The notes under the pieces: generated by a model
What the model was told of the DNA's origin: nothing
The model's input: only the letters and a program-made list of their open reading frames with translations
The model's database searches: none
Program-made: the position numbers and the translations under genes
From: Streptomyces sp. NBC_00510
GTDB lineage: Bacteria; Actinomycetota; Actinomycetes; Streptomycetales; Streptomycetaceae
Length of the DNA stretch: 64,000 nucleotides
Direction of reading: 5' to 3'
Assembly (NCBI GenBank): GCA_036013505.1
Contig: CP107851.1
Location: forward strand, 9,410,001-9,474,000
Part shown: positions 14,702 through 56,750 of the stretch, one piece after another
Layout of the letters: each line of letters starts with the position of its first letter
Numbering within the stretch: the first letter of the stretch is position 1

Positions 14702-15907
14702 ATGGAATCCGGTTCCTCCGCGCACAACTGCCCCTTCGACTTCGCCGAAGCCCTCGAGTTCGACCCGCAGCTGAAGCACTTCCTGGAGAACGAGCAGATC
14801 TCCCGCATCAAGCTGCCGCACGGTGAGGGTGAGGCCTGGCTCGTCACGCGGTACGAGGACGTGCGGACCGTGACGACCGACCGGCGTTTCAGCCGCGCCG
14901 CCGTCGTCGGCAAGGACTTCCCCCGCATGACGCCGGAGCCGATCGTCCAGGACGAGGCCATCAACGTGATGGACCCGCCGGACAGCAGCCGGCTGCGCTC
15001 GCTGGTCTCCAAGGGTTTCACGCCCCGGAACGTCGAGCACATGCGCACCAGCATCGAGCGCGTCGTCGCCGAACTGCTCGACGGCATGGAGGAGAGCGGC
15101 TCCCCGGCCGACCTCGTGGAGCACCTGGCGGCGCCGCTCCCGCTGGCCGCCATCTGCGAGGTGCTCGACATCCCCGACGAGGACAGCTGGGAGCTGCGGG
15201 GCCACGCCCGCACCATGATGGACTTCAGCCCCGACAACCGGGACAACGCCGTCCACTCCAAGGCCTACCTGCGGGAGTACTTCACCAAGCTCACCGCCGA
15301 ACGGCGCGCCCGCCCGGGCGACGACCTGGTCAGTGTGCTGGCCACCGCCCGTGACGGGGACGAGATCCTCAACGACAAGGAACTCGCCGTCATGGCCATG
15401 GTCCTGCTCATCACGGGCCAGGACACCACGTCGAACGAGATCGGCAACATCGCCTACACCCTGCTCACCCGCCCGCGCGAGCTGGCCATGCTGCGCGAGC
15501 AGCCGGACCGCATCCCGCAGGCCATCGAGGAGATGCTGAGGTACATCCCGTTCCGCAAGGGCGTCGGCATCCCGCGGATCGCCGTCGAGGACGTGGAGAT
15601 GGGCGGCGTGCTGATCCGGGCCGGCGACGTCGTCCACGTCTCGTACCTGACCGCGAACCGTGACCCGGAGAAGTTCGACCGCCCCGACGAGCTGGACCTG
15701 GACCGCACCGGCACGCCCCACATGACCTTCGGCTGGGGCGGTCACCACTGCCTCGGCGCGCCGCTGGCGACCATGGAGCTCCAGGTGGCCTTCAGGGAGC
15801 TGCTGCGCCGCTTCCCGGACCTGAGGCTGGCCAAGCCCGCCGACGAGGTGCGCTGGAGCGCCACGTCGATCTGGCGCTACCCGGTGGCCCTGCACGTCGC
15901 CTGGTGA
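14702..15907 (+). CDS. Cytochrome P450 (CYP158/CYP107-like) paired with the type III PKS
   Basis: A soluble 401-residue heme monooxygenase. The I-helix ITGQDTTS keeps both threonines (T242/T243), the ExxR pair is E277/R280, and the heme loop FGWGGHHCLG gives the thiolate C350. The stretch IPRIAVEDVEMGGVLIRAGD with VSYLTANRDPE is close to what I remember of S. coelicolor CYP158A2, which couples flaviolin made from the RppA product. Proximity to rppA supports oxidative coupling or hydroxylation of tetrahydroxynaphthalene or flaviolin. ATG 14702 has GGAG 7 bases upstream. A strong hairpin follows the gene, so rppA likely has its own promoter. Confidence 0.9.
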   Translation: MESGSSAHNCPFDFAEALEFDPQLKHFLENEQISRIKLPHGEGEAWLVTRYEDVRTVTTDRRFSRAAVVGKDFPRMTPEPIVQDEAINVMDPPDSSRLRSLVSKGFTPRNVEHMRTSIERVVAELLDGMEESGSPADLVEHLAAPLPLAAICEVLDIPDEDSWELRGHARTMMDFSPDNRDNAVHSKAYLREYFTKLTAERRARPGDDLVSVLATARDGDEILNDKELAVMAMVLLITGQDTTSNEIGNIAYTLLTRPRELAMLREQPDRIPQAIEEMLRYIPFRKGVGIPRIAVEDVEMGGVLIRAGDVVHVSYLTANRDPEKFDRPDELDLDRTGTPHMTFGWGGHHCLGAPLATMELQVAFRELLRRFPDLRLAKPADEVRWSATSIWRYPVALHVAW

Positions 15908-53125: not shown

Positions 53126-53162
53126 GCGGGGGCTCCTTGGGGGCTCGCGGGGGATCGGCTCA

Positions 53163-53178
53163 TACCGTCCAGTCGGTA
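53163..53178. promoter_or_regulatory. Inverted repeat upstream of the alpha/beta hydrolase
   Basis: TACCG-TCCAGT-CGGTA: perfect 5-bp arms, six-base spacer, TetR-like (ACCGACTGGACGGT on the gene strand). It differs from the TTACA-N9-TGTAA sites nearby, so another regulator is likely. Confidence 0.45.
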
Positions 53179-53267: not shown

Positions 53268-53295
53268 CATTACATTACACTTATGTAATGTAATG
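53268..53295. promoter_or_regulatory. TetR autoregulatory operator: CATTACATTACA-CTTA-TGTAATGTAATG
   Basis: A 28-bp perfect inverted repeat (12+4+12), 49 bases upstream of the TetR start. It holds two overlapping copies of TTACA-N9-TGTAA (53270-53288 and 53275-53293), the same spacing as the sites at 54075, 56092 and 56147. Confidence 0.8.
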
Positions 53296-53344
53296 CCCGC
53301 AATCGATGGCATGGGGCCGCGTCCGGGCACAGAGAGGACCGCGG

Positions 53345-54013
53345 ATGAGCGGCGACGACCGCACCGGAAGCGCCAAGGACGACAAGGGGGCCGACCGCGG
53401 CGCCGGCTCGCGGGTCGGTGGCCGGCCGCGGGACCCGGCGATCGAGGAGGCGATCATCCGGGCGACGCGCAAGCGGCTGGTCGCCGACGGGTACGCGCAG
53501 ATGACCATCGGGGACATCGTCGCCGACGCCGGGGTCACGCGGCCCACGCTGTACCGGCGTTGGGCGAACAAGTACGACCTGGTCGTCGACGCCCTCCGGT
53601 ACGGACTCCGCGCCCAGCGCGAGGCGTACCCGGACGTCGACATGGACGCGCTGACCGCGGTCGAGGCCTTCCGTGAGGCCGTGCGCCGCCTCGATCCGCG
53701 GTACCACAACAAGGGCGCGATGGCCCTGCACGGCAACTTCATGGCGGAGGTCGAACGCGCGCCCGGCCTGCTGGAGCAGCTGCGCGAGCACGGAGTGGGG
53801 CCCCGGTGCGACGAGTTGGTGCAGACCCTGCGGCGGCTCCGCGAGCGCGGCGAGGTCCGTGAGGACGTCGACCTCGACACCGTCGTGACCCTCTGCTTCG
53901 GCAGCTACTTCGCGGACTACCTGCGTACCGGTGGTTCCGGTGCGGACATCCCGGACCGCCTCGTCGCCACCGTCTGGCCCGCCATCGCGGTGCGCCCCGC
54001 CGGCTCCGCCTGA
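53345..54013 (+). CDS. TetR-family regulator of the nitroreductase/DUF4863 regulon
   Basis: 222 residues. HTH at about 35-75: MTIGDIVADAGVTRPTLYRRW. C-terminal ligand domain about 85-210 (EAFREAVRRLDPRYHNKGAM, LCFGSYFADYLRTG). ATG 53345 is preferred to 53306 because GAGAGGA precedes it and the first HTH region is unaffected. It lies directly beside the 28-bp operator and upstream of the nitroreductase on the same strand, so it likely represses itself and the genes carrying TTACA-N9-TGTAA. Confidence 0.9.
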   Translation: MSGDDRTGSAKDDKGADRGAGSRVGGRPRDPAIEEAIIRATRKRLVADGYAQMTIGDIVADAGVTRPTLYRRWANKYDLVVDALRYGLRAQREAYPDVDMDALTAVEAFREAVRRLDPRYHNKGAMALHGNFMAEVERAPGLLEQLREHGVGPRCDELVQTLRRLRERGEVREDVDLDTVVTLCFGSYFADYLRTGGSGADIPDRLVATVWPAIAVRPAGSA

Positions 54014-54074
54014 TCCGGCCGGGCGCGGTGCGGGCCGGGGCGGTCCGGGGCGCGGGCGGTCGGTATCCGTTCAT

Positions 54075-54095
54075 GTTACAGTGAATATCTGTAAC
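54075..54095. promoter_or_regulatory. Operator GTTACAG-N7-CTGTAAC upstream of the nitroreductase
   Basis: Perfect 7-bp arms with spacer TGAATAT, 32 bases before the start codon. Contains TTACA-N9-TGTAA. The AT-rich spacer probably overlaps the promoter -10. Confidence 0.8.
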
Positions 54096-54127
54096 GTAAC
54101 TGCCGCTCGCGCCCTGGGAGTTGACCG

Positions 54128-54829
54128 GTGGACGTCTACGAAGCGCTCTACACGACCCGGATCATGCGGCGCATGAAGCCGGATCCCATCCCGATGGAGA
54201 GCCAGTGCCGGATCCTGGACGCCGCGATCCGGGCGCCCAACGGCGGCAACACGCAACGCTGGCACTTCCTCGCCGTCGACGACCCCGGGCTCAAGGCGCG
54301 GCTCGCCGAGCTCTACGCGTCCTGCCGGCAGCGGGAGTACGCCGACATCGAGGCCGGCAGGCTCGGTACGGCACCGCACGAGGACCCCGCACGGCGGGCG
54401 CAGTCCCTGGGGCGCATCAAGAGCTCCGGGGACCACTTCGTCGAGCACTTCGCCGAGATCCCCCTGCTGGTCTTCGTCTTCGCGGTGGACGACCACGGCG
54501 GCGCGAACATCTACCCGGCCATCTGGAGTTCGCTGCTGGCCGCGCGGGCCGAGGGCATCGGCAGTGTGCTGACCACGGTCCTGCGCTACGAGGCCGACAC
54601 CGTCTGCGACCTGCTGGGCGTGCCCACCGCGGACGGCTGGCGGATGATCGCGATGCTGGCGTTCGGGTATCCACTGGGCCGCTGGGGGGTCGCCGCCAAC
54701 CGGCGTCCGGTCCACGAGGTCTCGTCGCGCAACCGGTGGGGCGCGTCGTTCGGGGCCCGGGTGCCCGAGCCCCTGTGGCCGCCGGACGCTGACGGTGCCC
54801 GCATCGAGCCGGACGGTCCGGCTTCCTGA
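54128..54829 (+). CDS. Nitroreductase-family flavoenzyme (PnbA-like candidate)
   Basis: 233 residues, FMN-dependent NADPH/NADH nitroreductase fold. MDVYEALYTTRIMRRMKPDPIP, IRAPNGGNTQRWHFLAV (FMN-binding, about 30-48), ANIYPAIWSSLLAARAEGIGSVLTT (second FMN site, described by position ~125-150) and FGYPLGRWG. Members reduce nitroaromatics to hydroxylamines. The shared operator with the DUF4863 gene suggests 4-nitrobenzoate-type reduction followed by lyase action. GTG 54128 has GGGAG 7 bases upstream. Confidence 0.88.
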   Translation: MDVYEALYTTRIMRRMKPDPIPMESQCRILDAAIRAPNGGNTQRWHFLAVDDPGLKARLAELYASCRQREYADIEAGRLGTAPHEDPARRAQSLGRIKSSGDHFVEHFAEIPLLVFVFAVDDHGGANIYPAIWSSLLAARAEGIGSVLTTVLRYEADTVCDLLGVPTADGWRMIAMLAFGYPLGRWGVAANRRPVHEVSSRNRWGASFGARVPEPLWPPDADGARIEPDGPAS

Positions 54830-54850
54830 GCGGGACGGCGCAGCCATGCG

Positions 54851-56023
54851 TCAGCCCGCGGGCGGGCACTGCACGGCCACCAGCGCCACGTCGTCATTGA
54901 GCCGCCCATCCGTGTGGCGGAGCAGGTCCGCCAGGACTTCCTGGAGCAGGGATTCCGGGTCGCGCAAGGCCGTGTCCCGGGGGATCCCGAGGTCGGCCAC
55001 GGAGTAGAAGGCGCCCGAGCGGTCCCGGGCCTCGGCGAGGCCGTCGGTGTAGAGCAGGAGCAGGTCGCCCGGGGCGAGCGGGAAGCGGTCCACGCGGTAC
55101 GCGGCGGGGTCGAGGCCGGCCAGGCCGAGCGGCGGCGCGGGCGCCGGGCCCGCGAGGGCGGTGATGCGGCCGTCGCGCAGCAGCAGCGGCAACGGGTGCC
55201 CGCAGCTGACCGTGCGCACGAGGCCCCCGCCGGCCGGGAACTCCACCAGCAGTGCGGTGATGAACCGCTCCGGCGCGTCGGCGTCGGCCTCGGACGCCTC
55301 GGCCACGTGCCGGCGCACGCTGCCCTCCAGCGCCGCGGCCAGGCCGGGCAGGGTGGGGTGCTGGTGCACCGCCTCGCGGAAGGCGCCGAGCAGTGCCGCC
55401 GTGTCGTCGAGCGCCTGCAGGCCCTTGCCCTTGACGTCGCCGATGAGGAGCCGGGTGCCGTACGGCGTCCGAGCCGCGGCGTACAGGTCGCCTCCGACCT
55501 CGGCCATCGTCTCGGCCGCCCGGTACACCGAGGCGACCCGCAGGCCCTCGATCCGCCGGGGGAGGGGCCGCAGGACGACCTGCTGCGCCGCCTCGGAGAT
55601 CGCCCGCAGCTGGCTCGCCTCCCGGCGGTTGCGGTCGCGGGTGTTGCAGAACGCGATGAGGAAGACGGAGACCACCAGCAGGGCGGCGACATGCGTCGGC
55701 AGGACGGGGGAGCGGAGCAGGCCGTCGTGGACGTCGCAGGTCACCGCGGCCGCCAGTGACAGCGCGGCCACCCCGGTGGTGGCGCGCGCCGTCGAGATCG
55801 CCGCCATCAGGGCGGGCGCGGCGATGAGCAGGGAAGCCAGGTGCACGTCGGAGGGCGCGAGGAAACCGATCGTCGTGATGATCAGCACGAGTGCGACGGG
55901 GGTGCCGACCTCGGACAGCCGCCATGCCCGCCACGCCCGCCAGGACCTGGACCGCTTCCGCCCGCGGAGCGCCGTACGGCCATGGGTGTGATGGCTCCCC
56001 GCACGCTTGATGGGCTCGTGCAC
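54851..56023 (-). CDS. Membrane-anchored SpoIIE-type PP2C phosphatase
   Basis: 390 residues. Basic N-terminus, about four membrane helices (38-135), then a PP2C/SpoIIE domain at 150-385 with EVGGDLYAAART, LLIGDVKGKGLQALD, VSCGHPLPLLL, LLLYTDGLAEARD and NDDVALVAV. Likely acts on an anti-anti-sigma factor. GTG 56023 follows GAGGCGAGGCCC. It lies in opposite orientation inside the TetR-operator region, with an operator copy 69 bases upstream, so it may be co-regulated. Confidence 0.88.
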   Translation of the reverse strand: MHEPIKRAGSHHTHGRTALRGRKRSRSWRAWRAWRLSEVGTPVALVLIITTIGFLAPSDVHLASLLIAAPALMAAISTARATTGVAALSLAAAVTCDVHDGLLRSPVLPTHVAALLVVSVFLIAFCNTRDRNRREASQLRAISEAAQQVVLRPLPRRIEGLRVASVYRAAETMAEVGGDLYAAARTPYGTRLLIGDVKGKGLQALDDTAALLGAFREAVHQHPTLPGLAAALEGSVRRHVAEASEADADAPERFITALLVEFPAGGGLVRTVSCGHPLPLLLRDGRITALAGPAPAPPLGLAGLDPAAYRVDRFPLAPGDLLLLYTDGLAEARDRSGAFYSVADLGIPRDTALRDPESLLQEVLADLLRHTDGRLNDDVALVAVQCPPAG

Positions 56024-56091
56024 GGGCCTCGCCTCCTCGGCCGGCCCGCCGCCCCACGACGGGGGAGACGGGTCACAGGGGAAAATTCATT

Positions 56092-56110
56092 ACAGATAGG
56101 AACTGTAACG
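56092..56110. promoter_or_regulatory. Operator TTACAG-N7-CTGTAA between phosphatase and DUF4863 genes
   Basis: Perfect 6-bp arms, spacer ATAGGAA; again TTACA-N9-TGTAA. 69 bases from the phosphatase start and 127 from the DUF4863 start. Confidence 0.75.
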
Positions 56111-56146
56111 CTGATCGACGTGCGGGGATTCCGTCCGGATCGGCGT

Positions 56147-56177
56147 TTCGTTACAGCTATTGACTATAACGAAACTC
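56147..56177. promoter_or_regulatory. Extended operator GTTTCGTTACAG-N7-CTATAACGAAAC
   Basis: 12-base arms with a single mismatch (C/T) and spacer CTATTGA. The core is TTACA-N9-TATAA, one change from the other sites, and it lies 60 bases before the DUF4863 start, where it would overlap the promoter. Confidence 0.75.
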
Positions 56178-56237: not shown

Positions 56238-56750
56238 ATGGATCACCAACGCGAGCTCGTCGAGCGCAGCATCCCGTTCCTGGACGCGGTCAGGAACCGC
56301 ACCGCGGGCAAGGAACTCGAGGGCTGGCTGAACGACACCCACGGTCCGCACAGCGGGCTGTACGGACACCTCTCGCGCCTGATCAAGCTCGGCGTCGAGG
56401 AGGGCTGGGCCGCGAACGCCGAGGTCGACGGCCCGAACTACCGGCGCAGCCTCATCGCACCGCCCTCGGCTGAGACGCAGTACTTCAGCATCACCGCGGT
56501 GTACATGAACAGCCAGGCCCCCTACCGGGGCCAGTACCACGCCCACCCCTACGGCGAGATCAACCTCGTGGCGCCCGTCGACCGGGACGCGCAGCTCGCC
56601 GGTCCCAGCGGCTGGCAGGGGCCGGGCTGGACCGCCCCCGCCCCCGGCAGCCACCACTACCCCGAGGTCCGCGGCGGCGCCCTCATCGCGCTGTTCTACC
56701 TGCCCGCCGGGCGCATCTCGTACGACATCACCGCGCCGCGCGGGCACTAG
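56238..56750 (+). CDS. DUF4863-family protein, 4-hydroxylaminobenzoate-lyase-like (PnbB-like)
   Basis: 170 residues. N-terminal helical part (1-70, LYGHLSRLIKLGVEEGWAAN), then a cupin-like barrel with HAHPYGEINLVAPVD, GWQGPGWTAPAPGSHHYPE and GGALIALFYLPAGRISYD. This matches my memory of DUF4863 proteins, whose characterised member PnbB converts 4-hydroxylaminobenzoate to protocatechuate and ammonia in nitrobenzoate degraders. The same operator motif as the nitroreductase gene upstream supports that role. GAGGAGG is 7 bases before ATG 56238. Confidence 0.75.
   Translation: MDHQRELVERSIPFLDAVRNRTAGKELEGWLNDTHGPHSGLYGHLSRLIKLGVEEGWAANAEVDGPNYRRSLIAPPSAETQYFSITAVYMNSQAPYRGQYHAHPYGEINLVAPVDRDAQLAGPSGWQGPGWTAPAPGSHHYPEVRGGALIALFYLPAGRISYDITAPRGH

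Follow-up and report, generated by a model that had tools for sequence, protein, structure and literature searches.

A 64-kb stretch of the Streptomyces sp. NBC_00510 chromosome (contig CP107851.1, positions 9,410,001 to 9,474,000; hereafter the window) contains a TetR-family regulator gene, a nitroreductase gene, a SpoIIE/PP2C-type phosphatase gene and a gene for a PnbB-type lyase, each preceded by its own copy of the palindrome TTACA-N9-TGTAA. Judging from sequence, we favour, with some reservation, the reading that these genes form an inducible regulon under TetR repression that handles a nitroaromatic carboxylic acid, with 4-nitrobenzoate the likeliest. The confinement of the operators to the locus, their scores far above a null model and the TetR orthologs that accompany pnbB operators elsewhere count for a TetR regulon; operators before an aromatic-acid/H+ symporter-like (AAHS-like) gene in Arthrobacter count for an aromatic-acid regulon; and the para-selectivity of Nocardia testacea CS1, which bears pnbAB, counts for 4-nitrobenzoate. 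The TetR wiring, the different nitroreductase and the putatively co-regulated phosphatase are new, whereas the two-step chemistry is already known.

Predicted operators in the window and the genome

An earlier note, made from the letters of the window, had described a shared palindrome with equal spacing at four sites, and this proved correct. With up to two mismatches allowed, TTACA-N9-TGTAA matches the window exactly five times, always at loci that the note had named, against a chance expectation of 0.70 ± 0.82; five matches were reached in 0 of 100 shuffles. Four matches are exact and the fifth, before pnbB, has one mismatch (Table 1). The positions given in the note were a few bases off (the third core lies at 56090–56108, not 56092–56110), and its two overlapping copies at 53268–53295 are both present, as cores at 53270–53288 and 53275–53293, within what is better read as one perfect palindrome, O1. 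The four genes downstream were identified as the note had them, and each has an operator 33–68 bp upstream of its start.

Scored with a weight matrix derived from 21 sites in other species, Actinacidiphila glaucinigra excluded, the window sites reach 21.4–38.1 bits, compared with maxima of 12.1–16.4 bits in ten genome-sized Markov sequences. This null is a first-order chain derived from the window, in which real A+T-rich pockets are incompletely modelled, and genome-wide pattern counts provide an independent check. All four exact matches in the 10.15-Mb chromosome lie within one 2.8-kb stretch of the window. One-mismatch matches occur at six further places, O4 among them, and the reversed pattern gives six matches at up to one mismatch in the same genome. 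Across 35 genomes of the genus, exact matches are found in four: four matches here, five in the other pnbB-bearing genome and one each in two more; the reversed pattern gives a single exact match in each of four genomes. Two one-mismatch sites, at 280,940 and 3,250,086, were set aside, their scores of 16.5–16.7 bits with a first matrix being close to the null maximum of 16.4 bits of a second, similar matrix. Another one-mismatch match occurs twice, at C1:159973 and C1:9987563, exactly mirrored at opposite chromosome ends, which would fit terminal inverted repeats of 160 kb or more.

The regulator and its predicted operator across relatives

The lyase gene is rare, being present in 2 of 35 genomes of the genus; at the family level, any match to pnbB was confined to 5 of 395 genomes, and in three of these the identity was ≤46%. 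Scanning species genomes yielded 12 actinobacterial pnbB loci (L008–L018 and L030), to which a plasmid of Arthrobacter sp. NicSoilB8 was added. Genes of these relatives were called with a simple third-position G+C caller that placed some in the wrong frame (for example, L010 4105–5886), and our conclusions rest on tblastn matches.

In 12 other actinobacterial genomes or plasmids, pnbB is accompanied by both the TetR ortholog and the operator, which bears out the link that the earlier note had drawn between the regulon and the TetR gene. The orthologs (12 of 12) are 53–86% identical, the next near-full-length paralogs reaching ≤39%, and share the recognition helix V(T/S)RPT(L/I)YRRW. An operator stands upstream of pnbB in all 13 aligned actinobacterial promoters, mostly as an exact match and with one mismatch in the window, L014 and L030; exact sites are present in 10 of the 12 other pnbB genomes or plasmids. 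Bradyrhizobium pnbB loci have no operator. In the closest relative found, A. glaucinigra, tetR, the nitroreductase, the phosphatase (at the same position), pnbB and all sites are kept, and the counterpart of O1 is nearly identical in sequence. From this similarity, and from the presence of a genome with the same pnbB locus in the same-genus set, the strain is probably an Actinacidiphila (Streptomycetaceae).

The TetR_N domain and an operator ahead of the regulator's own gene are kept together across relatives, including Kutzneria, where an operator also lies upstream of tetR several kilobases away from pnbB. An operator directly before tetR is not universal: in S. carpinensis (L129 6639–12729), the tetR ortholog lies on a separate contig, has a SpoIIE-type phosphatase homolog on either side (31% and 47%) and lacks an operator even with one mismatch allowed. 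S. flaveolus has two pnbB loci in one genome (L013 and L015), and the tetR copy beside L013, which matches in two fragments only, looks broken.

The arrangement at pnbB also suggests how control might be exerted. A −35-like hexamer, TTGACT (56160–56165), falls within O4. Of the 13 pnbB promoters, 11 have this hexamer within the operator, in most cases with a 17-bp gap to the best −10-like hexamer; L014 has TTGACC instead, L030 has no such hexamer and the −10 hexamers are weak matches. A repressor bound at pnbB would be expected to occlude RNA polymerase.

Backing for the regulator–operator pairing that is independent of pnbB comes from four further family members that carry a TetR relative at 48–56% identity without pnbB (L143–L146). 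In L144 (5471–10089), the TetR relative adjoins a carboxylic acid reductase (NF041592, 1810 bits), and in L145 (5976–10433) a similar long gene, judged from its N-terminal sequence alone; L143 has an acyl-reductase-like pair, recognized by eye and matched by no NCBIfam model, and L146 is degenerate. In L143, L144 and L145, inspection finds TTAC-N11-GTAA upstream, the half-site spacing being unchanged next to carboxylic acid reductases, and the recognition helix is almost identical. These neighbours hint at carboxylic acids as TetR ligands. No relevant paper on a TetR regulator with a carboxylic acid reductase was found among the titles listed from the open-licence literature searched.

Table 1. 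Predicted genes and operators of the regulon. Coordinates are those of the window unless marked C1; scores are from the weight matrix.
Feature	Coordinates	Strand	Description
Operator O1	53269..53296		Perfect inverted repeat CATTACATTACA-CTTA-TGTAATGTAATG; 48 bp upstream of tetR start; cores at 53270 (21.4 bits) and 53275 (26.7 bits)
TetR-family regulator (TetR_N + TetR_C_11)	53345..54013	+	222 aa; predicted autorepressor of the regulon
Operator O2	54076..54094		GTTACAGTGAATATCTGTAAC; 33 bp upstream of nitroreductase start; 36.3 bits
Nitroreductase-family enzyme (PF00881)	54128..54829	+	233 aa; clade distinct from PnbA
SpoIIE/PP2C-type protein phosphatase (PF07228, 135 bits)	54851..56023	−	390 aa; divergent from pnbB
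Operator O3	56090..56108		66 bp upstream of phosphatase start; 31.1 bits
Operator O4	56151..56169		One mismatch; 68 bp upstream of pnbB; 38.1 bits
PnbB-type lyase (PF16155, former DUF4863)	56238..56750	+	170 aa; predicted cupin fold
Unlinked operator and DsbA/FrnE-like gene (PF01323)	C1:1398536–1399208 (L153 4036–4708)		One-mismatch site at genome position 1,398,536, 28.9 bits, 30 bp upstream of the gene (1,398,585)

The phosphatase and the wider predicted regulon

The predicted regulon is larger than first reported and includes an unlinked DsbA/FrnE-like gene that is preceded by a one-mismatch site (Table 1). Its homolog in S. flaveolus (41%) is preceded by an exact site and followed by a nitroreductase like that of the window; the homolog in Kutzneria sp. 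744 is divergent from tetR with two sites in between. Sites also occur before an isochorismatase-family gene in L010, L011 and L015 (Pfam checked for L010), and the AAHS-like gene of Arthrobacter has two one-mismatch sites upstream; its product scores 342 bits, below the TIGR00895 cut-off of 418.55. In S. flaveolus (L127 8595–15142), an operator at 15142 stands before an ABC-transporter-like operon, which reads as a substrate-binding protein, an ABC ATPase, two permeases and a sugar-kinase-like gene.

For the phosphatase, probably membrane-anchored given its hydrophobic N-terminus, there is an alternative: the operators may be real and bound by TetR, with this gene only a passenger in the gap between divergent genes, leaving tetR, the nitroreductase, pnbB and the DsbA-like gene as the functional members. 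SpoIIE/PP2C-type phosphatases are very common in streptomycetes, and of 13 actinobacterial pnbB loci, the window included, only three have a homolog of this one. However, the two divergent genes of the window each have a separate site, at similar distances, and in S. carpinensis, where the genes are ordered differently, a separate operator lies about 50 bp upstream of the phosphatase homolog. We consider the passenger explanation unlikely yet a genuine contender; it is compatible with our preferred reading but for that one gene, and our confidence in the two overlaps.

The lyase, the nitroreductase and the substrate

The assignment of 56238–56750 to PF16155 made in the earlier note is well founded: the protein matches the hidden Markov model with 209.3 bits against a gathering cut-off of 26.9, over profile positions 2–153 of 153, and the genome has one PF16155 gene. 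Residues H101, H103, E107 and H140, putative metal ligands in a cupin-like pattern, are invariant in 12 diverse PF16155 members. A sequence search of the PDB with PnbB found no relative. Its predicted structure has a predicted local distance difference test score of 85.4, and its closest structural matches in the PDB are cupins, at low TM-scores (≤0.54 of query length), consistent with a predicted cupin fold that carries the conserved putative metal ligands.

Membership of PF16155 does not by itself settle which reaction is catalysed, because the family holds relatives of 2-hydroxylaminobenzoate mutase as well as lyases (PMC6449761), together with members of box operons. The same TetR regulon might accordingly act on another substrate. 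One candidate is 2-nitrobenzoate, which would lead through a mutase reaction to 3-hydroxyanthranilate; another is a piece of a nitro-aromatic antibiotic, for instance a product of chloramphenicol breakdown. In chloramphenicol degraders, 4-nitrobenzoate enters PnbAB (PMC9590159, PMC13400229), and the window nitroreductase is not PnbA-like. By sequence comparison, though, the window PnbB is nearest the LysR–pnbB–nitroreductase clade, being 57% identical to the DUF4863 protein of such a locus in Cupriavidus, 41% to a member in a 2-aminomuconate-type cluster and 33% to a box-operon member. The latter two, plasmid members that stand in this comparison for 2-hydroxylaminobenzoate mutase (NbaB) and box-operon proteins, share the Pfam family and the invariant H/H/E/H residues and are without the GWxGxGWTAPxPGSHHYPE form of the motif. 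A search of the genome for 3-hydroxyanthranilate dioxygenase, run without a positive control, gave no match, and PcaH (protocatechuate dioxygenase, TIGR02422) is present at 352 bits (cut-off 296). Another substrate seems to us doubtful.

For 4-nitrobenzoate, the earlier note had joined the nitroreductase and the lyase into the PnbA/PnbB route to protocatechuate. The PF16155 assignment and, through PcaH, the plausibility of protocatechuate as product stand; the nitroreductase as a PnbA ortholog does not. The enzyme belongs to the PF00881 family (71.6 bits, cut-off 23.5), and it aligns with the Cupriavidus nitroreductase at 33% identity over 81 residues only. A PnbA-like enzyme sought elsewhere in the same genome gave a best match of 43%. 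Because the window nitroreductase falls outside the PnbA clade, we infer its substrate, and its part in the first step, from co-regulation.

Several observations weigh against the 4-nitrobenzoate regulon and are gathered here. The nitroreductase belongs to a clade (C4) that is split with 100/100 support from the PnbA-like clade (C2), whose enzymes adjoin pnbB in Bradyrhizobium, Kutzneria, Arthrobacter and Cupriavidus. Two of the 12 other pnbB genomes or plasmids (G401 and G405) show one-mismatch operators only. No aromatic-acid transporter or pca genes were identified beside the locus in the window. Finally, PcaH is above its cut-off in 11 of 11 pnbB genomes, a count made in pnbB genomes alone that discriminates little; its presence shows, at the level of sequence, that the route can be completed and is not a sign of selection for the route.

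Proposed mechanism and relation to known systems

The operators, their co-occurrence with the regulator, the enzyme families and the presence of PcaH are supported by the comparisons above; from them we infer TetR binding, the direction of regulation, the ligand and what the phosphatase and the DsbA-like protein do. Without inducer, a TetR dimer would occupy the TTAC-N11-GTAA palindromes before tetR, the nitroreductase, the phosphatase and pnbB, covering the −35 box at the last of these. An aromatic acid, or an early metabolite of it, would release TetR. The nitroreductase would then produce the hydroxylamine, cupin-type PnbB would convert 4-hydroxylaminobenzoate to protocatechuate, and protocatechuate would be cleaved by the PcaGH of the genome, with the unlinked DsbA/FrnE-like protein and the phosphatase co-induced, perhaps for stress handling and signalling. 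That the palindromes are instead bound by an unrelated regulator, such as a global nitrogen or redox regulator, with the TetR gene a mere neighbour, is highly improbable: in general form, TTAC/GTAA half-sites do look like those that other regulators use, but a global regulator would have many sites spread over the genome whereas the strong sites here are those of the locus and one unlinked gene, TetR and operator stand together in 12 of 12 other genomes or plasmids, including before tetR itself in Kutzneria, and the same spacing recurs with TetR relatives elsewhere.

The pnbA/pnbB/pnbR systems of Pseudomonas putida TW3, Ralstonia pickettii YH105 and Paraburkholderia terrae KU-15 (for Paraburkholderia, PMC9302171) likewise group genes for a nitroreductase, a PF16155 lyase and a dedicated regulator, and there, as here, a protocatechuate dioxygenase is available. 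The window differs in having a TetR gene where the homologs in Cupriavidus, through which the sequence comparison with TW3 and YH105 was made, have a LysR gene beside them, and also in a nitroreductase of another clade, a palindromic operator at each gene, and the phosphatase and DsbA-like members. The earlier note had called such a system unusual for a streptomycete. Rarity within the genus agrees with this, but an actinomycete PnbAB has already been reported in Nocardia testacea CS1, a chloramphenicol degrader with a proposed route to protocatechuate, which attacks selected para-substituted nitroaromatics and not ortho- or meta-nitrobenzoates (PMC13400229). Its cluster is proposed to be controlled by the IclR-type ChdR, with TetR not mentioned (PMC13400229), in contrast to the TetR of the window. 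No account of TetR control, whether of pnbB or of nitrobenzoate handling in actinomycetes, was found in the open-licence literature searched, and nothing turned up there under the family name DUF4863.

More speculatively, and with only slight confidence, we suggest that the TTAC-N11-GTAA TetR subfamily senses aromatic carboxylic acids in Actinomycetota and controls varied means of their removal (nitroreductase plus PnbB, or carboxylic acid reductase), and that here, with a nitroreductase in the place of PnbA, it also induces a PP2C phosphatase, so that regulatory proteins would be dephosphorylated when a nitroaromatic acid arrives. The locus offers a compact regulator–operator–enzyme set for nitrobenzoate handling, predicted at base level and conserved over several actinomycete genera, and a candidate biosensor for aromatic or nitroaromatic acids. 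It also gives a testable function to a TetR subfamily found beside carboxylic acid reductases, and a way to ask whether a specific chemical signal switches on a streptomycete-type PP2C phosphatase.

Neighbouring features

In Kutzneria (L016–L018), the pnbB operon extends to an AraC regulator gene and a further set that, by eye, looks like molybdenum hydroxylase genes. In the window, a separate palindrome, ATACCG-TCCAG-TCGGTA (53162–53178), lies upstream of an alpha/beta hydrolase gene on the minus strand. It has a single match in the window at up to one mismatch, is also kept in A. glaucinigra and is probably the operator of another regulator.

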